From Alteromonadaceae bacterium Bs31 (lineage in GTDB: Bacteria; Pseudomonadota; Gammaproteobacteria; Pseudomonadales; Cellvibrionaceae), in the NCBI GenBank assembly GCA_900177435.1, contig FXAI01000004.1, positions 186,001 through 250,000 on the forward strand: a stretch of 64,000 nucleotides of DNA, read 5' to 3'. Below are positions 2,135 to 21,851 of the stretch, in pieces (the first letter of the stretch is position 1; every line of letters begins with the position of its first letter). Both the position numbers and the translations under genes were made by a program. Under the pieces are notes generated by a model, which worked only from the letters and a program-made list of their open reading frames with translations, was not told the origin of the DNA and searched no databases.

Positions 2135-2542
2135 ATGTTGATCGACAATCAAAATTCTGAGTATATGCTGGGTATTAATCAAATGGATACAACCCATGAG
2201 GAGTTTATTCATTTAGTCAACGAGCTTGAATTAGCAGATCCGCAGGTTTTTCAAAAGCGCTTTTCAGAACTTTTGAGCCATACGCAAAATCATTTTGACA
2301 ATGAAAGTGTTTGGATGGAAAAAAGTACATTTCCCGCCATGGATGAGCACATGAGTGAGCATAGGCGTGTTATGTCTGATCTCAAGCATTTTGAAAAGAG
2401 GGTGCAACGAGGCTCAATAATCATGGCCAGGGCCTACCTCATTGGCCAGCTGCCAGGCTGGTTCAAGCTTCACGCAACAACGATGGATTCAGCCTTGGCC
2501 AGACATCTGAAATCAAATGATTGTGAAGGAATGTTGGAATGA
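2135..2542 (+). CDS. Bacteriohemerythrin
   Basis: A single-domain hemerythrin of 135 residues. All seven di-iron ligands of the family can be placed: His21 (DTTHEEF), His53 and Glu57 (HFDNE), His72 and His76 (DEHMSEH), His113 and Asp118 (KLHATTMD). Such proteins bind O2 reversibly and some bind NO. In a diazotroph the product could scavenge or buffer O2 near nitrogenase or deliver it to respiration, which is an inference. Its stop overlaps the next start (ATGA at 2539-2542), so it is coupled to the rhodanese-ankyrin gene. A sigma-54 promoter lies just upstream. Confidence 0.88.
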   Translation: MLIDNQNSEYMLGINQMDTTHEEFIHLVNELELADPQVFQKRFSELLSHTQNHFDNESVWMEKSTFPAMDEHMSEHRRVMSDLKHFEKRVQRGSIIMARAYLIGQLPGWFKLHATTMDSALARHLKSNDCEGMLE

Positions 2543-3315
2543 GTTATTACGTAGAGATATCTGTCCGTGAGGCGGAACACAAAATAGTTGCGGACCCCAA
2601 GGCGCTTATTCTCGATGCGCGAGATGCCCACTCCTACAAAGATAACCATATTGAAGGCGCCATGCAGGCTCACGGAGGGCTAGTCGAGCATTTGCTGGCG
2701 AGCAAGCAGATTCATCGCCCTGTTCTTGTCTACTGTTATCACGGCACCAGCAGTAAAGAGTTGGCGGAGGTTTTTGGTCGCGCGGGTTTCACGGAAAGTT
2801 ACAGTATGAGAGGAGGATATACGGCATGGAAGAAACGGCGTTTTCTCTATACCGATAAGCAATATTCAACCATCACCAATGAGTGGTTGCTTAGGGAGTG
2901 CTTTGAAGAACAATCGCTAAACGCTAGCATCGATGGCCATATAAGCCCGCTTATGTTGGCTTGCCAGCAGGGACAACCAGAAATAGTCTCAGAGCTTCTA
3001 ATTGCCGGCGCCGATAAAGAAATGCGCAATGCCGACGGTAATACGGCACTCTGGTTTGCCTCTTATGCTGGTTGTGAAGATTCTCTCAATCTGCTTATTG
3101 ACGCGGGCGCTGATATAAATGCACAGAACGGCGAAGGGTTTACGGCGCTTATGTATGCCTCTTCGGCAGGTAAAACCAGTGTGGTGAAACTGTTGCAAAG
3201 AAAAGGCGCAGACCTTGAACTTTCGAGTAGAGACGATTTCACCGCGCTTGATCTTGCGGCTAATGCAGAGATTTTAAATTTTTTAAAACCCTTATATCGA
3301 GAGCCTGTTTTATGA
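2539..3315 (+). CDS. Rhodanese domain fused to ankyrin repeats
   Basis: Residues 1 to about 100 form a rhodanese (sulfurtransferase) domain with the active-site loop CYHGTSS (Cys66) and the CH2A-type LDARD motif. Residues 130-250 hold about three ankyrin repeats (for example GHISPLMLACQQGQPEIV and GFTALMYASSAGKTSVV). Rhodaneses carry persulfide sulfur; Azotobacter has a nif-linked rhodanese, RhdN, needed for full nitrogenase activity. The ankyrin part would bind a partner protein. The gene is overlapped at both ends by ATGA junctions with its neighbours. No signal peptide, so cytoplasmic. The fusion of the two domains is unusual, and I infer sulfur delivery to a specific Fe-S client. Confidence 0.82.
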   Translation: MSYYVEISVREAEHKIVADPKALILDARDAHSYKDNHIEGAMQAHGGLVEHLLASKQIHRPVLVYCYHGTSSKELAEVFGRAGFTESYSMRGGYTAWKKRRFLYTDKQYSTITNEWLLRECFEEQSLNASIDGHISPLMLACQQGQPEIVSELLIAGADKEMRNADGNTALWFASYAGCEDSLNLLIDAGADINAQNGEGFTALMYASSAGKTSVVKLLQRKGADLELSSRDDFTALDLAANAEILNFLKPLYREPVL

Positions 3316-4779: not shown

Positions 4780-4795
4780 TGGTTTGTTTTTTGCT
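4780..4795 (+). promoter_or_regulatory. Sigma-54 promoter for the NifX/NifY-family gene
   Basis: TGGTTT-GTTTT-TTGCT, with GG and GC exactly ten bases apart, 55 bases before the start codon at 4850. The -24 half is non-consensus (TGGTTT instead of TGGCAC). No TGT-N10-ACA box was found in the preceding 200 bases. Confidence 0.5.
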
Positions 4796-4822
4796 GTAGT
4801 AATATTTTTTTGCTGTAGTAAT
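4787..4822. repeat. 17-bp direct repeat in the nifX/Y leader
   Basis: The 17 bases TTTTTTGCTGTAGTAAT occur at 4787-4803 and again at 4806-4822. A partial third copy, TTTGCTGTAGTTAC, lies at 4656-4669. The first copy includes the -12 part of the sigma-54 promoter, so the second may be a duplicated promoter half or an activator or anti-activator site. Confidence 0.6.
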
Positions 4823-4849
4823 TATTTAGAGAGAAAACCAGGAGGTGAT

Positions 4850-5317
4850 ATGAGTTCCAACTGTGTAGCAGCCAGTGTGCCTTCCAGTGCGACATTGGTC
4901 GTGGCCTTTGCCTCTTTGGAAGGGGATATGGTTGATCAGCATTTTGGTTCGTCCCAAGGGTTTTATGTGTATGAAGTAAACGCATCTGATGCAAAGCTGA
5001 TATGCAGAAAGGCCTTTGGTCGGGAAGCAAAGGACGGCAATGAAGACAAGCTAAAACCCAAGCTAAAATGGCTGGTGGGTAGCGATATTATTTATTGTGG
5101 TTCCATTGGTGGCTCGGCATCCAGGCAATTGCTTAGCCTGGGCATTACGCCAGTGAAGGTCTCTGGTGGGCCGGATGTTGAAGAGCTTATCGAGGCGCTT
5201 CAAATACAGTTGTCGGGAACTCAAGAGTTCTGGTTGGCCAATATTCTGAAAAAGAAGGATAAAAACCTTGCTAATTCTGACAGATTCTCCTCTGTCGATG
5301 ATGAATCCTGGGATTAA
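4850..5317 (+). CDS. NifX/NifY-family FeMo-cofactor binding protein
   Basis: A 155-residue single-domain protein of the dinitrogenase iron-molybdenum cofactor family. It has the family core VVAFASLEGDMVDQHFGSSQGFYVY and the segment SDIIYCGSIGGSASRQLLSLGI. Such proteins carry FeMo-co or its precursor, or hold apo-dinitrogenase open. The start at 4850 is fixed by a strong AGGAGGTGAT just before ATG; an earlier in-frame start would add an improbable hydrophobic leader. In Azotobacter the gene in this position before nifE is nifY, so it may be the functional equivalent, although it lacks the extra N-terminal domain of NifY/NafY. nifX proper is at 8578. Confidence 0.82.
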   Translation: MSSNCVAASVPSSATLVVAFASLEGDMVDQHFGSSQGFYVYEVNASDAKLICRKAFGREAKDGNEDKLKPKLKWLVGSDIIYCGSIGGSASRQLLSLGITPVKVSGGPDVEELIEALQIQLSGTQEFWLANILKKKDKNLANSDRFSSVDDESWD

Positions 5318-5322
5318 TCAAG

Positions 5323-5577
5323 GTGTCTGAATTCAATTACATTACTCAATTAGAAGGTAAATTAAGGGCTTGTATATCGCTGCAAAACAGGGAAAAAAAT
5401 GCAGGCTACTGGACCATGCGTGTTCAGCTCTACTATCAGAACGAGCCTGCTGGTGTAACCACATTTAACCTTCATGGCTATACACGCAGTGAAGCCGAAG
5501 ATGTGGCTAGAAATGTTCACAAGAATGCGTATCTAATGAAAGAAATAGATGAGTACCTTTGGGGAGAGAGTGAATAA
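5323..5577 (+). CDS. Uncharacterised nif-region protein, 84 aa
   Basis: Starts with GTG at 5323, five bases after the stop of the NifX/Y-family gene, so co-transcribed. The product is small and soluble: a helical start (MSEFNYITQLEGKLRACI), a likely beta part (YWTMRVQLYYQNEPAGVTTFNLHGYT) and an acidic helix. There are no metal-ligand clusters. I do not recognise the family. The gene ends 180 bases before nifE, which has its own promoter. Confidence 0.6.
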   Translation: MSEFNYITQLEGKLRACISLQNREKNAGYWTMRVQLYYQNEPAGVTTFNLHGYTRSEAEDVARNVHKNAYLMKEIDEYLWGESE

Positions 5578-5638
5578 GGCTTTTTTGAGATGGAGCCGCT
5601 CAGGTTTTGTCGTACTCTGGTAAACCCCCCAAATTGTT

Positions 5639-5654
5639 TGTAGTAAACCCGACA
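5639..5654. promoter_or_regulatory. NifA upstream activator site for nifE
   Basis: TGT-AGTAAACCCG-ACA, a perfect TGT-N10-ACA, about 70 bases upstream of the expected transcription start. It shares TGTAGTAAA with the site before iscA. Confidence 0.7.
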
Positions 5655-5695
5655 AGTAAAACTAAAAACTCTCATAAATTCAATAGCTTGAAAAC

Positions 5696-5711
5696 TGGAA
5701 TACGCTTTGCA
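5696..5711 (+). promoter_or_regulatory. Sigma-54 promoter for nifENX
   Basis: TGGAAT-ACGCT-TTGCA: the invariant GG and GC are ten bases apart and the -12 half matches consensus. It lies 46 bases before the nifE ATG and 41 bases after a TGT-N10-ACA box. Confidence 0.7.
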
Positions 5712-5756
5712 AAACCCCGGTTAAGACATCAGTGAACTACCAGGGGTTAGCTGTTA

Positions 5757-7172
5757 ATGAAAGCCAATGATATTGCCGAATTACTGGACGAACCGGCCTG
5801 CGAGCACAACAAAAAAGAGAAATCTGGTTGTGCAAAGCCCAAGCCCGGATCCGCTGCCGGTGGGTGCGCCTTCGATGGAGCGCAAATTGCGCTGCTGCCA
5901 ATTGCTGATGTGGCGCATATTGTTCATGGGCCCATTGCCTGTGCAGGAAGTTCCTGGGATAACCGCGGTACACGCTCCAGTGGCCCGGATTTATACCGCA
6001 TAGGTATGACTACCGACCTTACCGAGCAGGACGTGATAATGGGCCGCGGGGAAAAGCGTCTCTTTCATAGTATTAAGCAAGCAATAAATGATTATCAGCC
6101 TCCCGCAGTTTTTGTTTATAACACCTGCGTACCCGCACTGGTGGGGGACGACGTTGATGCTGTGTGTAAAGAGGCAGAACAACAATTTGATGTGCCGGTG
6201 GTGCCAGTGGACGCGGCGGGATTCTATGGCACCAAAAACCTGGGAAATCGCATAGCTGGCGAGTCGATGATCAAATATGTGGTTGGTACCCGGGAACCCT
6301 CGGAGAAACCTGTACACCCGATAAGCCCCGAAATAAAAATTCACGATATCAACCTGATAGGAGAATACAACATTGCTGGTGAGTTCTGGCATGTGCTGCC
6401 TCTGTTCGACGAACTGGGCATTCGTATTCTTTGTACCTTATCCGGTGATGCGCGCTTCCATGAAGTACAAACCATGCATCGCGCGGAAGTAAACATGATG
6501 GTGTGCTCTAAAGCCATGTTGAACGTCGCGCGCAAACTGCAAAGCAGTTTTGGTACCCCTTGGTTTGAAGGCAGCTTTTACGGAATTACTGATACTTCTC
6601 AATCCCTGCGTGATATCGCTCGCTTAGTTAATGACCCCGATTTAACCGTGCGCACAGAGGCGTTAATAGAACGAGAAGAGAAAAAAATACGCGAAAAACT
6701 ATTAGCGTGGAAACCTCGCTTGAAAGATAAACGTGTGTTGCTTTACACCGGTGGGGTGAAATCCTGGTCAGTCATTTCTGCGCTGCAGGATCTGGGTATG
6801 GTGGTTGTGGCCACGGGTACCAAAAAATCCACAGAAGAAGATAAGGCGCGTATTCGGGAGTTGATGGGAGAGGATGTAAAGATGCTGGATGAGGGTAGCC
6901 CTAAGGTTCTACTGCAAACCGTGGCCGATTATAAGGCGGACATTCTTATCGCTGGGGGCCGCAATATGTATACCGCGTTAAAGGCCAAAATTCCCTTCCT
7001 CGATATAAATCAGGAGCGGGAGTTTGCTTACGCAGGCTATGACGGCATGGTAGAGCTGGTTCGCCAACTGTGCCTCACATTGGAAAACCCCGTATGGCAA
7101 GCGGTGCGCAAAAAGGCTCCCTGGGAAAATGCCAGTACAAAGCTGGCAACACCACTGGTGATTGGAGCGTAA
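5757..7172 (+). CDS. nifE: Nitrogenase FeMo-cofactor scaffold subunit NifE
   Basis: 471 residues, the alpha-type subunit of the NifE2N2 scaffold on which the NifB product is converted to FeMo-co by adding Mo and homocitrate. Cysteines 37, 62, 124 and 250 fall exactly where the structural cysteines of Azotobacter NifE do ([37 protein letters not shown]). The protein is full length and cytoplasmic. It is preceded by a sigma-54 promoter with a NifA box and followed 5 bases later by nifN. The nitrogenase genes nifHDK are not in the window. Confidence 0.96.
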
Positions 7173-7177
7173 GTTTT

Positions 7178-8578
7178 ATGGCTGAAATAATTAAACGAAA
7201 AAAGGCGCTCTCTGTAAGCCCCTTAAAGAGTAGCCAAACCGTAGGTGGGGCGCTGGCATTTTTAGGCTTAGATAAAAGTATGCCTTTAATGCATGGTTCT
7301 CAGGGCTGCACAGCCTTCGCCAAAGTATTTTTTGTTCGTCACTTTCGCGAACCTATCCCCTTGCAAACAAGCGCTATGGATCAGGTTAGTTCAGTTATGG
7401 GCGCAGATGAAAATGTTATCGAAGCCCTGAAAACTATATCTGAAAAAAACAAACCGGCAGTGATTGGCCTGGTGACCACCGGGTTGGCCGAGACGCAAGG
7501 TTGTGATATCCAATGGGCTGTGAAGGAGTTTCGAGCCAAGTTCCCCGAGTACGAACAGGTAGCCGTAGTACCGGTAAATACCCCGGATTACGCTGGGAGT
7601 TTTGAGAGCGGTTTTTCATTGGCAGTAAAAGCCATTGTTGAAACCCTGGTTCCGGAAGACTCCAGCAGGGTGGGTTTGCGTCAAAAGCAGGTTAACGTTT
7701 TGTGTGGCGCCAACCTAACACCTGGCGACCTGGAATATATTGTTGAAAGCGTAGAAAGTTTCGGATTGCGACCACTGTTGATACCGGATCTTTCAGGTTC
7801 GCTGGATGGTCACCTGGAGCAAAACGACTTTAATTCAACCTCTACTGGAGGCACCTCACTGGCTGACTTGAAGACTGCTGGGGAGAGCATTGCTACTTTG
7901 GTCGTTGGCGATAGCCTGGCAAGTGCCGCTGATAGCTTACGGCGTAGAACGGGTGTTGCGGATTTTCGTTTCGGTCATCTCATGGGCTTGGAAGTTGTAG
8001 ACGGTTGGTTAATGGCCTTGTCCGACATTAGCGGGCAGGATGTTCCCCTTAAATGGCAGCGGCAGCGCAGTCAACTGCAAGACGCCATACTGGATACGCA
8101 CTTTATGCTGGGCGAGGCACGTATTGCAATTGCCTCGGACCCGGACCTGTTACTTGGCTTCCATCGGTTAATGGAAGGCATAGGGGCCCGCACCGTAGCG
8201 GCTGTCGTTCCAGCAAAGATGGCTGATAAAAATCCTGCCTTGGAAAACAGTACGTTGGCTGTCGTGAAAATCGGCGACCTTGAAGATGCGGAGATAATGG
8301 CTAAAGACAATGAGGCGCAAGTATTTTTGGGAAACAGTCATGCGGCTGAGAGCGCAAAACGTCTGGGTATTCCTGTTTTACGAATGGGTTTTCCTCAATT
8401 CGATTTAATTGGCGGCTTTCAACGCTGCTGGTTCGGTTACAAAGCCAGTCAGCAAACGCTTTTTGACGTGGCCAATTTATTAGTCGAGCACCATTCGGGC
8501 GTAGCGCCCTACAAGTCGTATCTAAAGCAAGCGCCAGAAGAAACAAACGACCTACTAAGGCAAATGGCCAGTCACTGA
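7178..8578 (+). CDS. nifN: Nitrogenase FeMo-cofactor scaffold subunit NifN
   Basis: 466 residues, the beta-type partner of NifE. Start at ATG 7178, five bases after the nifE stop; longer in-frame starts run back into nifE and encode unrelated sequence. Recognisable segments are [20 protein letters not shown] at the start, [13 protein letters not shown] with Cys44 at the conserved position, [11 protein letters not shown]-like text near residue 98 and [15 protein letters not shown]. Its stop overlaps the nifX start (TGATG). Confidence 0.95.
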
Positions 8579-9033
8579 TGGCGAACATAACGCGGCAGTT
8601 TAGTATTGTTGGTAAGGAAGACCAGAGTCTGGGCTTGAAAGTCGCATTTGCCAGTGACGACGGTAAAAATGTAAATCAGCATTTTGGCTCGTCCCGTTCG
8701 ATACTTATTTACACTTTAACGCCAGATACCGCGGAATTAACAAGTGTTGCCGAGTTCTCTCCTCTGGGAGAGCAAGAGACAGATGACAAACTTGCCGTGA
8801 AGATGAAATATTTGGAAGGTTGCGCAGCGGTTTATTGTCGCGCGTGTGGTGCTTCTGCCATCAGACAATTGCTGGAACAACATATCCAGCCGCTAAAGGT
8901 AGTTGAAGATGTTTCGATAAAAGATCTTATCAAAGCATTTCAACGAGAATTGCTTGAAGGCCCTGCAAACTGGCTGGCCAGGGCTATTGGTCGCCAGCAG
9001 AATGGCAGCCACGAATTTGAAATGCGAGATTAG
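8578..9033 (+). CDS. nifX: FeMo-cofactor carrier protein NifX
   Basis: 151 residues of the same family as the gene at 4850: core KVAFASDDGKNVNQHFGSS and the AVYCRACGASAIRQLL segment, which has two cysteines where the 4850 paralogue has YCGSIGG. NifX binds the NifB cofactor and the VK-cluster and passes them between NifB and NifEN. The ATG overlaps the nifN TGA by one base, giving coupled translation. Position directly after nifEN identifies it as nifX rather than nifY. Confidence 0.92.
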   Translation: MANITRQFSIVGKEDQSLGLKVAFASDDGKNVNQHFGSSRSILIYTLTPDTAELTSVAEFSPLGEQETDDKLAVKMKYLEGCAAVYCRACGASAIRQLLEQHIQPLKVVEDVSIKDLIKAFQRELLEGPANWLARAIGRQQNGSHEFEMRD

Positions 9034-9068
9034 AGCAACATGCTTAAAACATACTGGAAGGTGAATTT

Positions 9069-9539
9069 ATGAGTGACGAATTAGTTGTTAAAGATGGGGC
9101 AGAAGTTCTTTCCCATCCATTTATGAAGCAGATTGTTATTCAACTGCGTGCGATGGACGGTTACGGTACTTACGACACTTGGAGTGATGCACAAGTATTG
9201 GACCCGATAATTCTGACTAAGGCGCGACGCCGAGAAATACCGGTTGTGGGGGATCCCGACGAAACTGTTATTTCAAGAGTAAAAGCCTACTACAACGGTA
9301 TTGCACAAATGATTGAAAAAGAAACGGGAATTATGGCAGTCCCCGTTATTAATCTGACGCATGAGGGCTTTGGCCGGTCGATGATTACGGCTGGTAAGTT
9401 GGTAGTGTTGGACAAAACTCTGAGAGATGTTCATCGCTTCGGTTTTGACTCACCAGAAAAGCTGATTGGCGAAGCGGAAAAGCTTGTAACAAAAGCTGTA
9501 GAACTAATTAAAAAATTTCCAGAAGTGGCGGAGATGTAG
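9069..9539 (+). CDS. NifX-associated nitrogen fixation protein (DUF269)
   Basis: 156 residues, a full-length DUF269 protein: HPFMKQIVIQLRAMDGYGTY, RRREIPVVGDPDE, MEKxTG-type segment and AGKLVVLDKTLRDVHRFGF. The family is almost always encoded directly after nifX in diazotrophs (the ORF after nifX in Azotobacter). It is required or helpful under some conditions but has no settled biochemical role. The gene starts 36 bases after nifX. Confidence 0.92.
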   Translation: MSDELVVKDGAEVLSHPFMKQIVIQLRAMDGYGTYDTWSDAQVLDPIILTKARRREIPVVGDPDETVISRVKAYYNGIAQMIEKETGIMAVPVINLTHEGFGRSMITAGKLVVLDKTLRDVHRFGFDSPEKLIGEAEKLVTKAVELIKKFPEVAEM

Positions 9540-9556
9540 GCCCAGGAGAATAAGCA

Positions 9557-9763
9557 ATTACTGACGAAGAACTAAAAGCCCTTAATAAGGATGCGAAAAG
9601 GAAAAAGCGAATAGCAAGCGAATGGGCATCGCAGGTTCACGATCTGGTGGAGGATGCGCTATGGTCTGATTACCCGAAATTAACTGAGTTGGCGGAAAAT
9701 ACCATTGCAGCCTGTGAGGCCTGGAAAGAAGCAGAAGTCAAACTTGCTCAGGCGACGGCATAA
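9557..9763 (+). CDS. CCE_0567-family small nif protein, apparent ATT start
   Basis: A 68-residue helical-hairpin protein of the CCE_0567 (DUF683) family, which normally follows the DUF269 gene. Reading from 9557 gives, after the start, TDEELKALNKDAKRKKRIAS, then VHDLVED, YPKLTELAENTIAACEAW and KLAQATA, aligning end to end with the family start (M-T/N-D-E-E-L). The first codon is ATT. An in-frame TAA lies two codons earlier (9551-9553) and no ATG follows in frame, while AGGAG at 9544-9548 is ideally spaced for 9557. ATT starts are very rare (infC and pcnB in E. coli). A base-calling error of ATG to ATT is the alternative. Confidence 0.82.
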   Translation: MTDEELKALNKDAKRKKRIASEWASQVHDLVEDALWSDYPKLTELAENTIAACEAWKEAEVKLAQATA

Positions 9764-9782
9764 ACCAAGAGGGGTAAACCTG

Positions 9783-10094
9783 ATGACTGAAGACGTAATG
9801 ATTGGTAAAACACGGGGAGGGAGCGATTGGACTCCCGAATTTGTAACCGCACTGAACGCAGCTACTTGTATTGGATGTGGACGTTGCTACAAGGTATGTC
9901 CTCGGGATGTTTTCGAATTAGTTGAAAGGGCTGATTTGCTTGATAATTTCGATGATGATGACGACGACGATTACGATGATGACGATGAAATGAAGGTTAT
10001 GGCGATCAAAGACGCAATGGACTGCATAGGCTGTAAATCCTGTTCGCGTGTTTGTCCTAAAAACTGTCATACCCACGAGTCAATTGCCGCTTAG
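9783..10094 (+). CDS. fdxB: Nif-specific ferredoxin III (2x[4Fe-4S]-type), FdxB
   Basis: 103 residues with two cysteine motifs, [14 protein letters not shown] and [15 protein letters not shown], separated by a very acidic insert (residues 56-68, almost all Asp). This is the layout of FdxB-type ferredoxins encoded behind nifENX, which donate electrons for FeMo-co synthesis or nitrogenase. Start at ATG 9783, after GAGGGG a few bases upstream; an earlier in-frame start would lie inside the preceding gene and encode basic unrelated sequence. Confidence 0.9.
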
Positions 10095-10110
10095 TGAAAG
10101 AGTAAGAAAA

Positions 10111-10431
10111 ATGCCAAAACCTGATTGTCATATTTTCATTTGTATGCAAAAACGTCCGCCTGGCCACCCTCGAAGTTCCTGTGGTGAAAAAGGCTGTGAA
10201 GCTGTCTATAACAAATTTTCTCAAGAATTAATTCAGCGTAACCTGCAAAATGTAGCTCTCACACAAACAGCGTGTTTAGGGCCCTGCCAGGCGGGAGCCA
10301 ATGTACTGATTTACCCAGGCGGGACTATGTATGGTTGGGTAGAGGTGGACGATGTGCCAAAAATTATTGAACAGCATGTTCTAGGCGGTAAGATTTATGC
10401 CGACAAAGTAGCGCCGGCGGAGCTGTGGTAG
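10111..10431 (+). CDS. Thioredoxin-like [2Fe-2S] ferredoxin (Shethna protein I type)
   Basis: 106 residues. The sequence [20 protein letters not shown] and [18 protein letters not shown] match the thioredoxin-fold [2Fe-2S] ferredoxin of the Azotobacter nif region (FeSI). The ligands are Cys11, Cys24, Cys55 and Cys59; Cys6 and Cys29 are extra. It is homodimeric in the family; its nitrogen-fixation role is not firmly known. Start at ATG 10111; translation from farther upstream would overlap fdxB. Its TAG shares a base with a GTG start of the next gene (TAGTG). Confidence 0.9.
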
Positions 10432-10998
10432 TGGCGAGCGCTGAAAGTGCATCAAAAATTGTTCCACTACATGAAAGTGTTTTTTTCTCACCAAAACCAC
10501 CTATGGCTTTGGGCATGGTGTTAGAGCAGGCGCGAATTACCGAAAATATCGAGCGACGAGAAGTTGCCCTTTTAGCTGCGCGGGAGCGATGGCCGCACGA
10601 GCCCGATAGCCATATTGCGCTGTATAAATTTTATTTTATCAGTGGTAGATACGCCAAAGCGGAAGCTGCGGTGTGGGCGGTTTTAAGGTGTGCCGCGAAT
10701 TTGTTGGGCATAAATCGAAACTATCGTTTGTTAAGCCTTAAAACAGCACCCTCACGAGCACAGGGAGGGAAAGTGAGCGTGATACAAGCCGGTGCGATAA
10801 GTTGGCGGAAAAAATATGGCCCAGCGCGCTTGTATTTGTTTAGCTTAAAAGCGCTGGGTGTATGTCGCTTGCGCAGGGGTAGGGTGTTGGCTGCGCACTG
10901 CGCTTTTAAAAAAGCTAAAAGAGCTTGATGAAGCTGACGAAATTGGTGGCCATGCTTTTCTACATATTGCCAAAACCATACTTGAAGAAGATGAATGA
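10431..10998 (+). CDS. TPR-like nif-region protein with an apparent 1-base frameshift
   Basis: Starts at GTG 10431 (or 10425). The zero frame ends at a TGA at 10926-10928, but the paralogue at 20549 continues about 30 residues beyond that point. Skipping one base in the homopolymer block TTTTAAAAAA (10904-10913) joins the zero frame to a +1 frame ending at 10996-10998 with KKLKELDEADEIGGHAFLHI, collinear with the paralogue tail. That end overlaps the next start (ATG 10995) as expected in an operon. The body holds a TPR-like motif (ALYKFYFISGRYAKAEAAV). The cause may be a real mutation, slippage-dependent decoding or a homopolymer sequencing error. Function unknown. Confidence 0.65.
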
Positions 10999-11390
10999 AT
11001 AAGCGAAGGTGTGCAGATCTGCCTGGCGGTAATCTAGCTCAGCAGAGGCTAGAAGCGGAATGGCCGTTGATAGAGCAGCTATGGTGGGCGATGAGAGAAG
11101 CTCTAAGGCCTTTGGGTTTGCTCAATCACGTTCCCGCAGAATTAAAATATTTTGATTTACTCTATATTAAAAGTGACCCTTTTGATGCAAGCGAATCCTT
11201 GTTTGGTGAGTGGCGCGAGAACAACTCGTTGCTAGGAAGTGTAGTTATTCATGAAAATGGTAATGCCTTTGCTGAACTTGACATCCTTATACCTCATCCC
11301 TTAAAAAAAGCTTGGTTTATTGAAGCTGTTACCGCGTGGGGTACAAGAGAAAATATAAAAGCCGAGCTAAGGCTATTACCTTCTCTATAG
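10995..11390 (+). CDS. Uncharacterised nif-region protein, 131 aa
   Basis: Last gene of the nifE operon by spacing: its ATG overlaps the corrected stop of the TPR-like gene. The protein is soluble and tryptophan-rich (EWPLIEQLWWAMREALRP), with FGEWRENNSLLGSVVIHENG and an ELDILIPHPLKKAWFIEAV segment. No metal-binding motif or known catalytic signature is visible, and I do not recognise the family. It ends 675 bases before the pectate lyase gene. Confidence 0.65.
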   Translation: MNKRRCADLPGGNLAQQRLEAEWPLIEQLWWAMREALRPLGLLNHVPAELKYFDLLYIKSDPFDASESLFGEWRENNSLLGSVVIHENGNAFAELDILIPHPLKKAWFIEAVTAWGTRENIKAELRLLPSL

Positions 11391-12065
11391 AGCACGCTAT
11401 TCGTAGTTAACTCAAGGCACTGGCGTATTATTCTCAAATACGCTCGAGATATAAGCGAGACAGCCCAGTAGCAGTTACATCAGCGCTGTTATCAACACTT
11501 CAACAAAGCCATTGCTGCTACCCCGTTTTTCAGTGTGCAGGCCTGAGTGTCTGTACTACGTATACACCGCATTCCCCTAGCCCCTCTGCTCAGGCCGTCG
11601 ATCAATTCTCGTATCAGTACCGGATCAGTGAGTTAGCACAGTAACAGCGGACGTGTGAATATATATTTTAATTTTTTAAAAACCATACTAAAGCATTTAT
11701 GGTAGCTTCGGTGTGGTAATGCCAATGTTACCTTACTGATGTTAGCGGCTTAGTAGGAATACACTGGAGGTATACAAGGATACGAATGTTTTCTGGTCCT
11801 ATGACTTAGAAAGTAAAAATTTCGACGTAAAGTTACTAAAAATGACGGCTATTTCTTACATTTTTAATTCAAGTAGTTAAACTGGCCAAGCCAAAAAGGA
11901 CAACCAAGGCTTCTATGTGGTTCGACAACCCGGAAATCACGGTAAGTTTCGCAGTAGAGTTCTGGTGTTTTTTTGTTCAAGTCGCGAACAAATACTCAAT
12001 GTAGTATCGCAGTACTTAGTTCGTGGTCGATTAAAAGAAATAATTAATAAATAAAGGTCGTCACA
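11391..12065. other. 675-base gene-free leader before the pectate lyase
   Basis: No ORF of note, no GG-N10-GC promoter in the right place and no strong terminator hairpin are visible. An AT-rich block (about 11660-11690) and a second one (12030-12055) lie in the part nearest the lyase, so a sigma-70 promoter with a long leader is likely. This marks the left edge of the non-nif insertion in the nif cluster. I see no transposase remnant or inverted-repeat end. Confidence 0.5.
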
Positions 12066-15000
12066 ATGAAAAAATATCTAGGCGCCGTGAGTGCGCTAGC
12101 TTTAGCTTTGACCTGTGGGTCAGCTATGGCTGCAACGGGTTATGCAACCCAGAATGGCGGAACTACAGGTGGTAAAGGTGGTTCAGTGGTGCGAGCTACA
12201 ACGGGAACACAAATTCACCAAGCGATCTGTGGCCGTGCGAGCGACACTACTCCTCTTATCATTGAAGTTTCCGGCACTATCACGCCAGGTAACACCAAAA
12301 AAGCCAGTGGTAGCTGTAATACCAAAGACGGTGTTATTGAACTTAAAGAGATCGAAAATATTACGCTTATTGGCGTAGGCGGTGGTGCTACCTTTGATGA
12401 GATTGGCATTCACATCCGTAATTCCAAGAACATTATTTTACGTAACCTACACGTTAAAGATGTAAAAAAATCTGGCGGTACCACCTCCAATGGTGGTGAT
12501 GCAATCGGTATGGAATCCAACGTTTCCAACGTTTGGGTTGACCACTGCACCCTCGAAGCGTTTGGTGGCGAGAATGAAGGCTACGATGGCCTGTTCGACA
12601 TGAAAGCCGACACCAAATACGTAACACTTTCCTACAGTATTCTAAAAAATTCAGGCCGTGGTGGCTTAGTAGGGTCAAGTGATGGCGACACGAATAACGG
12701 TCCAGTGACTTACCACAACAACTACTACATTAATATCGATTCTCGCGTTCCTTTATTGCGCGGTGCCACTGCCCACATCTATAACAACTATTACGACGGT
12801 ATTAACAAGTCGGGTATCAACGCGCGCCTCGGCGGAAAAGCCAAGGTAGAGAACAACTACTTTGACAACGCTAAAAACCCGCTGGGTACGTTCTATACCA
12901 ATGATATGGGTTCATGGGATGTTAGCGGCAATATCTTTAGTGATAGTGTTACCTGGACTGCAGACGGTGATGATAATCACCCGGCCGGCCCAAATGTTAA
13001 ATCGACAACTTCCTTTAGTGTTCCATACTCCTACTCCTTGGACGACGCGAAATGCGTTCCCTCTATCGTAAAAGAGACCGCTGGTGCCAACAACGGCCTG
13101 CGAACGTCCAATGGGCAATGTAAAGTTGATAACAGCTCTTCAAGCTCAAGTTCGTCCAGCTCTAGTTCATCCAGTTCGAGTAATTCCAGCTCCACATCCA
13201 GTTCAAGTACTTCCTCTTCTGGCGGAAACGGAGAGCTGGGGTCAAACCTCAGCATTGGTGCGGGCTCAGATGGCTCCAGCAAAGGCGCGGGAAGTTATGG
13301 CAGTGTTCGTGATGGCGACATGAGTTCTTATTGGTCACCAAGTGGCACAAGCGGTCGAATCTCCATTAAATACAGCAGCCCTCAAACTTTGCGCACTGTG
13401 ATCATCAAAGAATCAGCAGATTCCGAAGGTAGTATTAGTGCCTGGAAACTGGTTAATAACGATAACGGCAGCCAAATTGCCTCTGGTTCCGGAGTTGGTG
13501 TTATTAACTTCAGTGCTGTAACACTGAGTAAAATCAACTTTGAGATCACCAGCGCAAGTGGTACGCCAAAAGTAGCGGAGTTCGAAACCTACGGCGAATC
13601 CGGTGGTAGCACTTCAAGTTCCAGCTCGTCTTCTAGCAGCAGCTCCTCCAGTTCTTCAAGTACTAGCTCTACCAGTTCTTCAAGCTCTAGTTCTACCAGC
13701 TCTTCGAGCAGCAGTTCTTCCAGCTCATCCTCCTCCAGTTCTACTGGTGGCAGTGGTATTTGTGACGGCGTGAATGTACATCCAAACTGGACTGCGAAAG
13801 ACTGGCCAGGTGGTATACCCAACCACGCTGAAGGTGGGGACCAAATGGTTTATCAGAACAACTTGTACAAAGCGAACTGGTACACTAACTCTGTTCCTGG
13901 CAGTGACTACTCATGGTCTCTGGTAGGTAGCTGTAACGGTACTGGCGGTTCTTCTTCAAGCAGCTCCAGTTCATCCTCGAGCTCTTCTTCCTCCAGTTCG
14001 TCCAGCACTTCCTCCTCAAGCAGCTCCAGTAGTTCCAGCTCTTCAAGCTCCGGTTCTATTGAATTGACTATCCAGGAAGAAACCGGTGGGTTCTGTAATG
14101 TTGATGGTTCTATTGACTCCAACAACGGTGGCTTCACCGGTGCTGGTTTTGCAAATACCGACAACGCCAGCGGAAAAGCTGTTGTGTGGGCCGTTAAAGT
14201 ACCTTACGGAAGCAGCTATTCTCTGGAGTGGCGTTATGCGAATGGTTCCAGTGATAATCGCAAGGGTGATATTAAAGTTAACGGCTCTAAGCTTGCTTCT
14301 GTAGATTTCGACTCTACGGGTTCTTGGAGCAGCTGGACCTCCGTGAGCAAGACCGTTAGCTTAAGTGGCGGCAACAATACTATTGAGCTGGTTGCGACCA
14401 CTGGCGGTGGATTGGCTAATATTGACTCCATTATGCTGGTGGGTAACGATCTTTCTCGGGGTTCTTGTGATAACTCCAGCAGCTCTAGCAGCAGTTCCAG
14501 TTCTAGTTCCAGCAGCTCTAGTTCCAGCTCTTCCAGTTCCACTGGTGGCATGGGCTCGGCCTGTACTTCTTCAAAAGGTAACGTCACTATTAAGAAGTCC
14601 GATCATCCAAATGGCTATGTTGTAAATGGCACTTTTGATGGTGGCTGTAAAACCTATACTCCTGATTGGGGTGATTGTGGCCAAGCAGAAGGTCAGAAGC
14701 CTGTGTTCCGTGTTAACGGCGGTACCTTGAAGAACGTGATAATTGGTCAGCGTGGCGACGGCGTGCATGTTTACGGCAATGCGACTATCGAAAATGTTAC
14801 TTGGCCAAACGTCTGTGAAGATGGTCTTACTGTTAAAGATGATGCGACAGTTACCATCAGAAACATTACTGCCAGTGACGCAGATGACAAATTTATACAG
14901 GTCAATGCCAAGGCAACCGTTAACGTATCCAAGGCAAAAATAAATAATGTTCTTAAAATGTTCCGTGAAAACGGGGGCAAATGTTACCCCATTAAAGTAA

Positions 15001-15140
15001 GCCTGAAAGACTCTGAGCTGACAAAAGTACGAGAAGCTATTTTCCGTACCGATTGCAGCAGCAGTACTTTCACTATGTCCAACACCAAAACAAGCGACAT
15101 CAAAGCTGTTTGTAAAGGTGATGGTAAGTGTAGCTACTAA
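12066..15140 (+). CDS. Secreted bifunctional pectate lyase: PL1 - F5/8-like - CBM5/12 - CBM35 - PL3
   Basis: 1024 residues. A Sec signal peptide (cleavage after SAMA, about residue 22) precedes five domains joined by four poly-serine linkers. Residues 23-353 are a PL1 pectate lyase (VWVDHCTL and the catalytic-arginine block NIDSRVPLLRG). Residues 387-510 resemble an F5/8-type galactose-binding domain. Residues 563-622 are a small Trp-rich module like CBM5/12 (ANWYTNSVPGSDYSWSLVGSC). Residues 664-800 are a CBM35/CBM6-type module. Residues 828-1024 are a second catalytic domain of family PL3 (GDGVHVYGNATIENVTWPN, CEDGLTVKDDATV, DDKFIQV). Both lyases cleave de-esterified homogalacturonan by beta-elimination; the other modules should tether the enzyme to wall polysaccharides. 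A terminator follows. The CBM family assignments are less certain than the two lyases. Confidence 0.92.
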   Translation: MKKYLGAVSALALALTCGSAMAATGYATQNGGTTGGKGGSVVRATTGTQIHQAICGRASDTTPLIIEVSGTITPGNTKKASGSCNTKDGVIELKEIENITLIGVGGGATFDEIGIHIRNSKNIILRNLHVKDVKKSGGTTSNGGDAIGMESNVSNVWVDHCTLEAFGGENEGYDGLFDMKADTKYVTLSYSILKNSGRGGLVGSSDGDTNNGPVTYHNNYYINIDSRVPLLRGATAHIYNNYYDGINKSGINARLGGKAKVENNYFDNAKNPLGTFYTNDMGSWDVSGNIFSDSVTWTADGDDNHPAGPNVKSTTSFSVPYSYSLDDAKCVPSIVKETAGANNGLRTSNGQCKVDNSSSSSSSSSSSSSSSSNSSSTSSSSTSSSGGNGELGSNLSIGAGSDGSSKGAGSYGSVRDGDMSSYWSPSGTSGRISIKYSSPQTLRTVIIKESADSEGSISAWKLVNNDNGSQIASGSGVGVINFSAVTLSKINFEITSASGTPKVAEFETYGESGGSTSSSSSSSSSSSSSSSSTSSTSSSSSSSTSSSSSSSSSSSSSSSTGGSGICDGVNVHPNWTAKDWPGGIPNHAEGGDQMVYQNNLYKANWYTNSVPGSDYSWSLVGSCNGTGGSSSSSSSSSSSSSSSSSSSTSSSSSSSSSSSSSSGSIELTIQEETGGFCNVDGSIDSNNGGFTGAGFANTDNASGKAVVWAVKVPYGSSYSLEWRYANGSSDNRKGDIKVNGSKLASVDFDSTGSWSSWTSVSKTVSLSGGNNTIELVATTGGGLANIDSIMLVGNDLSRGSCDNSSSSSSSSSSSSSSSSSSSSSSTGGMGSACTSSKGNVTIKKSDHPNGYVVNGTFDGGCKTYTPDWGDCGQAEGQKPVFRVNGGTLKNVIIGQRGDGVHVYGNATIENVTWPNVCEDGLTVKDDATVTIRNITASDADDKFIQVNAKATVNVSKAKINNVLKMFRENGGKCYPIKVSLKDSELTKVREAIFRTDCSSSTFTMSNTKTSDIKAVCKGDGKCSY

Positions 15141-15165
15141 TATTAAGCTCTAGTTAACATCCTTG

Positions 15166-15191
15166 AGCCCGCTTTTACAGCGGGCTTTTTT
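15166..15191 (+). terminator. Rho-independent terminator of the pectate lyase gene
   Basis: AGCCCGC, a 7-base loop, GCGGGCT and a run of six T, 26 bases after the stop codon. Confidence 0.88.
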
Positions 15192-15291
15192 ATGCTTAAT
15201 GGATTGCTAAAAAGCGAAGGAGAGCCCTGCAATAGCAAGGCAGCCAGCATTAGAGCCCATATGTTTACGGGCGAGCCACAAGCCCGTCAAA

Positions 15292-15561
15292 TCAATGGGC
15301 TTCGTCTATTAATATATGTAGTTCCTCCGGCCAGCAAGCTACCGGAGGTCCCAGTTCTCCAGGCTTGTTCTCGGTTTCAAACCTCACCAGTACCAGGCTT
15401 TTATCCGGCTGGTCTTCCAGGTGGCCGGTATTGATTATCACACCTCGCTGATTTTCCTGTGCGATTAAACCTTCTTCTTCATAGCCAGGCATGCTGCCGT
15501 CGTTAGTGATGTTCTTTGCTGCGTAAATAATATCCCCAGGTGCGAGAGTATCGATCAACAT
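15292..15561 (-). CDS. Short NifZ-domain protein
   Basis: 89 residues, essentially one NifZ domain: GDIIYAAKNITNDGSMPGYE, then EEGLIAQENQRGVIINTGHL, LVLVRFE and VACWPEEL. These match in order the NifZ at 21411 (VRVARNVRNDGTYPG, RGAIGCVNDVGTYLQD, VGCREEEL). NifZ helps mature the MoFe-protein P-cluster. ATG 15561 is chosen because AGGAG lies 6 bases before it; an earlier in-frame start adds an unrelated leader of 19 residues. The gene is opposite in strand to all nif genes around it, between the pectate lyase and iscA. No sigma-54 promoter is visible on its own strand. Confidence 0.78.
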   Translation of the reverse strand: MLIDTLAPGDIIYAAKNITNDGSMPGYEEEGLIAQENQRGVIINTGHLEDQPDKSLVLVRFETENKPGELGPPVACWPEELHILIDEAH

Positions 15562-15573
15562 GTGAGTCTCCTG

Positions 15574-15589
15574 TGTAGTAAATGTTACA
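15574..15589. promoter_or_regulatory. NifA upstream activator site for iscA-nifUS
   Basis: TGT-AGTAAATGTT-ACA, a perfect TGT-N10-ACA, about 95 bases upstream of the -24 element of the iscA promoter. It also lies just upstream of the divergent short nifZ gene. Confidence 0.72.
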
Positions 15590-15683
15590 AAGCTGAAGCC
15601 TAGTTTTCTTTGTAACATGGACGTCTTTGTGGGTACTTAATTCAAGTGTTTGAATTTATTGAAGTTTTTTCTTTCGAAACCGG

Positions 15684-15699
15684 TGGCACATGGCTTGCA
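15684..15699 (+). promoter_or_regulatory. Sigma-54 promoter for iscA-nifU-nifS
   Basis: TGGCAC-ATGGC-TTGCA, a full match to the sigma-54 consensus, 87 bases before the iscA start. The best sigma-54 promoter in the window. Confidence 0.88.
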
Positions 15700-15785
15700 C
15701 TTTTGATTTCGAGAAGCTCAATTTGATATTTGCAATGTCTCTGCCAAAAGCGGAGATGCAAAAAATACATCCAGAGGACGAATAG

Positions 15786-19720: not shown

Positions 19721-20535
19721 ACGAAAGAACGCAGTGTTTGGCAGACCTTAGTGGCAAGCATACCGACAATAGCAGCCCTAAACAGACACTTTGGCAACAA
19801 TGGAGTGAGGACCTCAGCTGTGTTTTTGATCGGGACCCTGCCGCCCGTTCGAGGCTCGAGGTACTTACAACCTACCCTGGCGTACATGCCCTGTTGATCC
19901 ATCGATTAAGTTACCGCCTTTGGTCGCGAGGCTGGCTCTATTGTGCGCGCCTCCTGGCGTTTTTTGCCCGCTTGTTGAGTAACGTTGATATTCATCCTGG
20001 CGCCACCATCGGCAGAAGGCTTTTTATCGATCATGGCGCCTGCGTAGTGATTGGTGAAACTGCGCAAATTGGTAATGACGTGACGCTCTACCACGGTGTG
20101 ACCTTAGGTGGCACTACCTGGAATAAAGGCAAGCGTCATCCAAGCCTGGGAAATAAAGTTTTAGTGGGCACTGGAGCGAAAATACTGGGGCCAATAAGCC
20201 TTGGCGACGGTGTTCGCGTTGGTGCTAACTCTGTAGTTGTCGAAGATATTCCCGCTGATGTCACCGTTGTAGGCATACCCGGAAGAGTTGTAAATGTGGG
20301 TAAGGCGGAAGGTAAATATACCCACGGTATAGATTTAAATCATCACTTGATTCCCGATCCGGTTGGCAAGGCAATTAGCTGTTTACTTGATCGAATAGAT
20401 GGGCTTGAACAGCAGTTAAGTGAGCTATCAGACATGTCGGCTTATAGATCGGATATTAAAGGCGAGTGTAGACCCGATAACGAGTTTTGTTTGCGGGACT
20501 GTTCAATTGGCTTGGAAGCGAGTTCAGCCAAGTAG
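19717..20535 (+). CDS. cysE: Nif-associated serine O-acetyltransferase
   Basis: 272 residues. A helical N-terminal region is followed by a left-handed beta-helix of hexapeptide repeats ([20 protein letters not shown], then [22 protein letters not shown] and [20 protein letters not shown]). It makes O-acetylserine for cysteine synthesis, the sulfur source of NifS. This is the position of the nif-specific cysE1 of Azotobacter, between nifV and nifW. About 70 residues at the C-terminus beyond the helix are variable and include a region with several cysteines. Confidence 0.93.
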
Positions 20536-20548
20536 TAGGAGAGCGGCT

Positions 20549-21076
20549 ATGGATTTACAAGAGTTCAATGCAGAAATGTTGTATTTCGAAGGGGATGGTA
20601 ACCCGCTTGTTGATGAATTACTTGAAAAAGCAGCCAGTGATTACGGCCCAGCCAGTGAAGTAATGCTCATGCGTGCACTCGCATTGGACGGAAAAAACCT
20701 GGTAGCACTCATTGGTCTTTATCGCTTTTATTACTACCAGGGCCGGTATGCCGACGGTATCAAAGTCGCCCACAGAGTAATGGCCGTTGTTGGAGATAAA
20801 ATAGGCTTTCCCGCCAACTGGAAGGATATTTCTTTGCTGTCGGTTAAAAATGGTCTGGTTCACTCATTCTGCCTGGTAAGGTTGTATTTTTTTGCATTAA
20901 AAGCCGCAGGTTATCTCCATTTGAGAATGCTCAACTATGAAGATGGTAGAGAAATGATAGAGAAAGTTGTGGCGATGGATAGTTCCGATAGAATCGGAGC
21001 GAAATTACTGTTAGATATTCTAGACAACAAGAAGGCAGACATTGTGCCTTTCCCTAGACAACCGGAGGCGTGCTAA
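20549..21076 (+). CDS. TPR-like nif-region protein (paralogue of the gene at 10431)
   Basis: 175 residues. Start ATG 20549 follows AGGAGA at good spacing; longer in-frame starts run into cysE. The sequence is helical with a tetratricopeptide-like core (LIGLYRFYYYQGRYADGIKV) and a second helix pair (LVRLYFFALKAAGYLHLRML), both alignable with the protein at 10431. I recall an uncharacterised ORF at this position, between cysE1 and nifW, in Azotobacter as well. A scaffold or chaperone role in nitrogenase assembly is possible. The stop overlaps the nifW ATG (TAATG). Confidence 0.8.
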   Translation: MDLQEFNAEMLYFEGDGNPLVDELLEKAASDYGPASEVMLMRALALDGKNLVALIGLYRFYYYQGRYADGIKVAHRVMAVVGDKIGFPANWKDISLLSVKNGLVHSFCLVRLYFFALKAAGYLHLRMLNYEDGREMIEKVVAMDSSDRIGAKLLLDILDNKKADIVPFPRQPEAC

Positions 21077-21410: not shown

Positions 21411-21851
21411 ATGCAACCTAAGTACGATTACGGCGAAGAGGTAAGAGTGGCGCGCAACGTGCGAAACGATGGCACATACCCGGGAAAAGAAGTCGGTGAA
21501 TTACTGTTAAAGCGAGGTGCTATAGGTTGTGTCAATGATGTAGGTACCTACTTGCAGGATCAGCTTATATATCGTGTCAACTTTCTCGGTGAGGGGAAAA
21601 CAGTGGGTTGCCGCGAAGAAGAACTGATACCCGCCAGTGCCCCCTGGGTGGATAACAAATTCGAGTTCAATCAAAAGGTTCTCACAAAAATTCCAATCAC
21701 CGTCGGTGGTGAAACGGTTGTGCAGGAGAAACAGCAAGGCTTGATTATGAAGGTACTAAGGGATATCGAAAGGCAAAAAATTCAGTATCACGTTCACTTT
21801 AGTAACCGAGTGTTCCAAATGCCAGAAGCGGCATTAGAGCAGTTCGAATAG
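21411..21851 (+). CDS. nifZ: Nitrogenase maturation protein NifZ
   Basis: 146 residues. The N-terminal half is the canonical NifZ domain (EEVRVARNVRNDGTYPG, RGAIGCVNDVGTYLQDQLIY, VGCREEELI). The C-terminal half (from about residue 83) looks like a degenerate second copy (FNQKVLTKIP, QQGLIMKVLRDIERQKIQYH). NifZ acts with the Fe protein to form the second P-cluster of the MoFe protein. It starts 2 bases after nifW. A shorter NifZ-domain gene is present at 15292. Confidence 0.93.
   Translation: MQPKYDYGEEVRVARNVRNDGTYPGKEVGELLLKRGAIGCVNDVGTYLQDQLIYRVNFLGEGKTVGCREEELIPASAPWVDNKFEFNQKVLTKIPITVGGETVVQEKQQGLIMKVLRDIERQKIQYHVHFSNRVFQMPEAALEQFE

Follow-up and report, generated by a model that had tools for sequence, protein, structure and literature searches.

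Why does a gene for a plant-wall enzyme stand in the midst of nitrogen fixation genes? In Alteromonadaceae bacterium Bs31 a pectate lyase gene lies between two halves of a nif cluster, within a window of 64,000 nucleotides (C25:186001-250000; the window is this whole stretch) on a contig of 519,910 bases, in a 5,017,353-base draft genome of 46 contigs. An earlier note on this DNA had read the arrangement as the interruption of a conserved nif gene order, which might either bring carbon acquisition and nitrogen fixation into one transferable block or be a chance insertion. We consider it probable (roughly 0.8) that the lyase arose as a chimeric paralog and came to lie in an inter-operon gap of the nif cluster that tolerates extra genes: a real insertion, ordinary in kind. 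Its position between the two halves, as the earlier note had described it, is borne out by the open reading frame and by family matches:

4784-11390, + strand: left nif half, with NifX/Y-like, nifE, nifN, NifX-like, DUF269, CCE_0567-like frame, ferredoxin III, FeSI-like and two small unnamed open reading frames
12066-15140, + strand: modular pectate lyase, PL1 - F5/8-type-C-like - CBM5/12 - CBM35 - PL3 with Ser-rich linkers (open reading frame and family models)
12252-12863, + strand: PL1 Pfam core (PF00544, 3.3e-33, above cut-off)
13206-13620, + strand: middle domain, matching F5/8 type C only weakly and below the family cut-off
13755-13937, + strand: CBM5/12 (Pfam, 1.1e-31, above cut-off)
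14109-14438, + strand: CBM6/35 (Pfam, above cut-off)
14601-15116, + strand: PL3 domain (PF03211, 6.8e-34, above cut-off), nearest own-genome relative on contig C39
15786-24810, + strand: right nif half, with iscA-type, nifU, nifS, nifV, cysE, unnamed open reading frame, nifW, nifZ, nifM, clpX and flavodoxin (nifF) genes (family models)

The lyase reading frame is intact and encodes 1024 residues, with five long Ser/Thr stretches and an N-terminus that looks signal-like by eye, so that the product is probably secreted. It belongs to PL1 by PF00544 and by a match at 2.8e-60 to the solved pectate lyase 7xks (a chain of 304 residues, matching the PL1 part only), and to PL3 by PF03211, which we take to be the PL3 family, and by a match at 1.7e-37 to the solved pectate lyase 1ee6 (a chain of 197 residues, matching the PL3 part only). 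With these modules, the secreted enzyme would bind the plant cell wall and cut polygalacturonate.

The lyase is absent from this place in the relatives. Our family sample held 144 genomes, with a NifE match in 10 including Bs31; the clusters of the nine others, our comparison set, were searched with 24 reading frames of the window at a match threshold of 1e-4. None of the nine has a lyase match at the junction, and all nine carry both nif halves on one contig, with a gap of at most ~2 kb. In the comparison of nif order that the earlier note had proposed, the lyase is thus not a shared neighbour of all relatives, and in these nine the halves are not separate clusters. An order-level sample of 390 genomes gave a NifU match at 1e-90 in 16, among them Bs31 and two of the same genus; of the remaining 13 loci we compared 12 (G225, whose match lies at a contig end, was left out). 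The lyase is found in none of these 12, of which eight show the junction (G450, G188, G434 and G277 do not).

By these comparisons the insertion is specific to the Bs31 genome among those compared, and a single gain explains the pattern much more simply than repeated loss. It is highly improbable that the lyase stood at the junction originally and was lost in the relatives. That history finds some room in a tree of 14 nif clusters, which leaves the place of Bs31 among its kin unresolved, but it needs loss in all nine family clusters and in the eight order-level clusters with a visible junction. By NifE identity the nearest kin are G003, G005 and G006 (89-90%).

The junction is also occupied by other genes. 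On the opposite strand, Bs31 has one that the earlier note had counted as part of the interruption:

15292-15618, - strand: NifZ-domain gene, likely start 15561 (PF04319, 3.3e-7, above cut-off)

Five of the nine family clusters (G003, G005, G006, G025 and G158) have this gene at the junction, so it most likely predates the lyase there. In G003, G005 and G006 it sits, on the opposite strand, between the last left gene and iscA, all within ~0.8-1.05 kb. The NifZ-domain gene is alone at the junction in these three and in G025, and G060 and G001 hold nothing large. The remaining three family genomes carry other genes in the gap: a solute-binding protein (SBP_bac_1) in G058, DUF364/DUF4213 and UPF0114 genes in G151, and in G158 DUF364-like frames (called by likeness, with no family scan) with an unknown open reading frame. 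Cargo recurs at the junction in further loci: G349 (L115 8479-11166, reoriented) has an ABC ATPase with a TOBE domain, a permease and a binding protein there, G444 an SDR gene with two open reading frames (one without a Pfam match, one unscanned), and G460 an open reading frame without a Pfam match. The G349 set resembles a molybdate transporter, a cargo that would suit nitrogenase. A DUF364-type gene, called by likeness, is at the junction in G349, G444, G387, G368, G265 and G310 as well, and in partial form in G330; in the window the DUF364/DUF4213 gene lies instead at 77-1144, close to the left end of the nif genes. Since several clusters hold unrelated genes at this same junction, nif gene order would seem to be kept within operons yet open between them.

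The right half is preceded by sites of its own that resemble promoter elements:

15574-15589, + strand: TGT-N10-ACA, a NifA-type site upstream of the iscA operon (pattern match)
15684-15699, + strand: sigma54-like promoter of the iscA operon (pattern match)

We take TGGYAYN5TTGC to be the sigma54 site and TGT-N10-ACA to be the NifA site. The former precedes iscA, with the latter 108-121 bases further upstream, in all 18 clusters scanned (the window plus 17 loci, those among the 21 compared in which the junction is visible; this count has no shuffle control). It is the conserved position that counts, as TGT-N10-ACA alone is at chance level in the window (15 against 14.4) and the sigma54 pattern with one mismatch allowed is not above chance there (2 found, 3.8 expected). 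The lyase lies upstream of both iscA sites, and both are kept, so no working nif unit is visibly split. The nif genes would keep working because the iscA promoter and its NifA-type site are downstream of the insert. Of the interruption proposed in the earlier note, the insertion of the lyase into a conserved gene order is supported (0/9 relatives), but what the junction itself contains varies.

Where did the lyase come from? PL1 matches occur at 17 places in the Bs31 genome, the lyase included, and relatives of its modules lie at four or more places over several contigs. For its PL1 part the genome has three further copies, one on C45 and two on C22, at 81-82% identity, and its CBM5 and CBM35 are 74% and 76% identical to those of the C45 gene. 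The middle domain, at 33% or less to the C45 and C22 genes, instead finds its match in a stretch on C37, at 77% identity. For the PL3 end it is a separate PL3 gene of 417 residues on C39, at 84%; at this position the genes on C45 and C22 carry another domain of PL1 type. The lyase would thus be a chimera, with PL1 and CBM parts like those of the C45 and C22 genes, a middle like that on C37 and a PL3 end like the C39 gene, and its assembly may have preceded or followed the insertion. Nonsynonymous divergence from the paralogs (dN) is 0.12-0.16 and synonymous divergence (dS) is above 2, which is saturated and makes the ratio rough; as yardsticks nifE and nifU gave no value, their dS being saturated too. 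By these estimates the divergence of the lyase is old and selection on it is purifying, as for a gene kept by selection.

In a PL1 tree of 18 rows the lyase falls into a 12-member clade, together with sequences from its own genome and from G007, G020, G024, G003 and G005. Genome G007, which has no NifE match, carries at two loci (L089, L098) PL1 copies that are fragmented or interrupted by stop codons; we read these as signs of turnover in the lyase family.

The paralogs also share what lies before the gene. DNA likeness to the PL1 copies starts 33-60 bases upstream of the start codon, so that the 675 bases between the left half and the lyase fall into two parts:

11391-12017, + strand: intergenic stretch with no match in the relatives' junctions and without a sigma54, NifA-type or terminator-like site
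12018-12065, + strand: 5' leader common to the lyase paralogs (DNA likeness and pattern search)

The leader pattern AATAA-N3-6-RGGTCRTCACAATG has four matches genome-wide, all of them preceding PL1 genes (the lyase and its three copies), and none in a reversed control; as it was drawn from these same four genes, it informs only that no other place has it. We propose that a lyase gene made of the bacterium's own module types, together with the leader that also precedes its PL1 relatives, took up its place in the gap between two nif units under separate control, and that it would be controlled by the 5' region of its own family and not by NifA. Neither a sigma54-like promoter nor a TGT-N10-ACA site is present in 11391-12065, which argues against membership of the lyase in a NifA regulon.

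Could the lyase nevertheless be transcribed from the NifA-driven left nif operon, so that pectin cutting rises during nitrogen fixation? It lies on the strand of the left half, and no terminator-like site separates them in 11380-12070. However, shuffles lead one to expect just 0.5 such sites, so that finding none carries little weight, and the same scan finds none in the G006 and G003 junctions either. The 675-base distance, the kept family leader and the lack of sigma54 or NifA-type sites before the gene also speak against read-through, which we regard as unlikely. Its fuller form, with the lyase as last gene of the left operon coupling pectin breakdown to nitrogen fixation in a wood-feeding symbiont, is decidedly unlikely. 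If the lyase were under nif control, plant-wall digestion would be linked to nitrogen supply; nothing here shows such control. The RNA fold of 11391-11700 is no better than that of shuffles (z -0.15).

On its other side, the lyase has the terminator of its own that the earlier note had ascribed to it:

15165-15187, + strand: terminator-like hairpin with a T-run 3' of the lyase (hairpin scan)

Such sites are not a rare class, nine being found in that stretch against 5.1 in shuffles, and this is the longest-stemmed of those listed. An Rfam Trp_leader match at 15116-15193 overlaps this hairpin; it was rejected at 28.6, below the gathering score of 41.

The idea of carbon and nitrogen genes gathered into one transferable block fares poorly. 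The nif genes are patchy in the genus (NifE in five of eight same-genus genomes, Bs31 included), as such a block might be. Against it, the lyase is in one of 10 family nif clusters, its modules have relatives dispersed across other contigs, and a tRNA scan of the window found none. Pfam scans covered part of the window's open reading frames, and among those scanned neither a mobility gene nor a second carbohydrate-enzyme gene is named. The junction reading frames scanned likewise include no transposase or integrase, and clear repeats are not seen at the flanks, the borders of the insert being unplaced. We hold a transferable block to be barely credible; the chance insertion that the earlier note had offered beside it fits better, given a site between transcription units, other unrelated genes there elsewhere, a leader of the gene's own and no sigma54 or NifA sites.

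An artefact of assembly, in which the lyase or its PL3 end was misjoined via Ser-rich repeats, is very unlikely. The draft state of the genome, the five long Ser/Thr stretches and the related modules elsewhere in the genome would allow it. A wrong placement would need two false joins. The flanks of the lyase match nowhere else in the genome beyond a 28-base terminator-like stretch, the closest copies are only 72-75% (PL1) and 78% (PL3) identical in DNA, and an intact reading frame stands on a contig of more than half a megabase. A false join inside the lyase gene is harder to exclude than a wrong placement.

Several observations weigh against the insertion of a chimeric paralog or limit what can be said of it. 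The insert is present in a single genome, itself a 46-contig draft. When compared with lyase-free junctions, as the earlier note had suggested for the flanks, 11391-15319 has no match, so that the borders of the insert cannot be defined to the base; 11391-12017 and 15141-15319 gave only short matches of 27-29 bases against 122 loci. Repeats of at least 8 bases common to both flanks come down to one 8-base word. A sigma70-like promoter was not found upstream of the lyase, which leaves its promoter unplaced. The PL1 tree gives the lyase no resolved sister, and the order PL1 - middle - CBM5 - CBM35 also occurs in one gene each of G003 and G005 (65-68%, 61%, 52%). Since these genes have the same front order, the front of the lyase is possibly an inherited gene that moved and no fresh copy; either duplication or relocation of an inherited gene may account for it.

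An enzyme of nearly the same build is known: the Teredinibacter turnerae E7MBN lyase E7_MBN_01628 likewise combines PL1, CBM5, CBM35 and a second lyase domain; it is recorded there as a secreted protein and was detected in the secretome of cells grown on pectin (PMC12055684). Its second lyase domain is PL1, whereas that of Bs31 is PL3, a family that the main text of that paper never mentions. The kin of Bs31 may belong to Teredinibacter, as their mix of nif-bearing and nif-free members agrees with that in PMC8346767. By analogy, the host strain probably leads a wood-associated life. With PL1 and PL3 in one chain, the Bs31 lyase illustrates on a small scale how enzymes acting on cell walls exchange modules. 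Literature searches, judged by title or start of abstract, found no paper on a pectate lyase inserted in a nif cluster and none linking Teredinibacter, nitrogen fixation and pectate lyase.

The nif halves themselves follow the Azotobacter-type major order, nifENX...FeSI and then iscA-nifUSV-cysE-nifWZM-clpX-nifF; the likeness to Azotobacter itself is taken from PMC2699552 and the earlier note. The same gene set makes up the third nif cluster of T. turnerae T7901 (nifENX, nifUSVPWZM), which that paper likens especially to Azotobacter, nifHDKT lying in a separate cluster; its main text never mentions "pectate lyase" (PMC2699552).

In the left half nifE, nifN, TIGR02935 (DUF269) and the nif ferredoxin III are above NCBIfam cut-offs, and the two NifX-like genes and the FeSI-like ferredoxin are below family cut-offs. 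Among named kin, the FeSI-like protein led to a single locus, in Sessilibacter corallicola. Its end is marked by one further gene:

10995-11390, + strand: last left-half gene, 131 residues, no Pfam or NCBIfam match, kept beside the junction in most clusters seen

The CCE_0567-type gene was called by likeness to G006. No open reading frame of at least 40 residues with an ATG, GTG or TTG start was found for it; the frame at 9557-9760 opens at ATT, where G006 has ATG; either translation may begin at a rare codon or the start may have been lost. Some relatives have a shorter left half: DUF269 in G001, and the ferredoxin in G058 and G060, is followed by iscA either directly or with cargo between them. 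In G001, four non-nif open reading frames (functions judged by eye) lie between nifS and nifV (L067 ~11770-15780, reoriented), which gives the genus another nif cluster with cargo.

In the right half, family models give NifW at 21070 and NifZ at 21411. Beside nifW, a 218-residue open reading frame (20420-21076) is kept in many clusters and matches no Pfam or NCBIfam family. At the other end of the nif region, a rhodanese-ankyrin fusion protein is encoded at 2539-3315, beside the nif genes.

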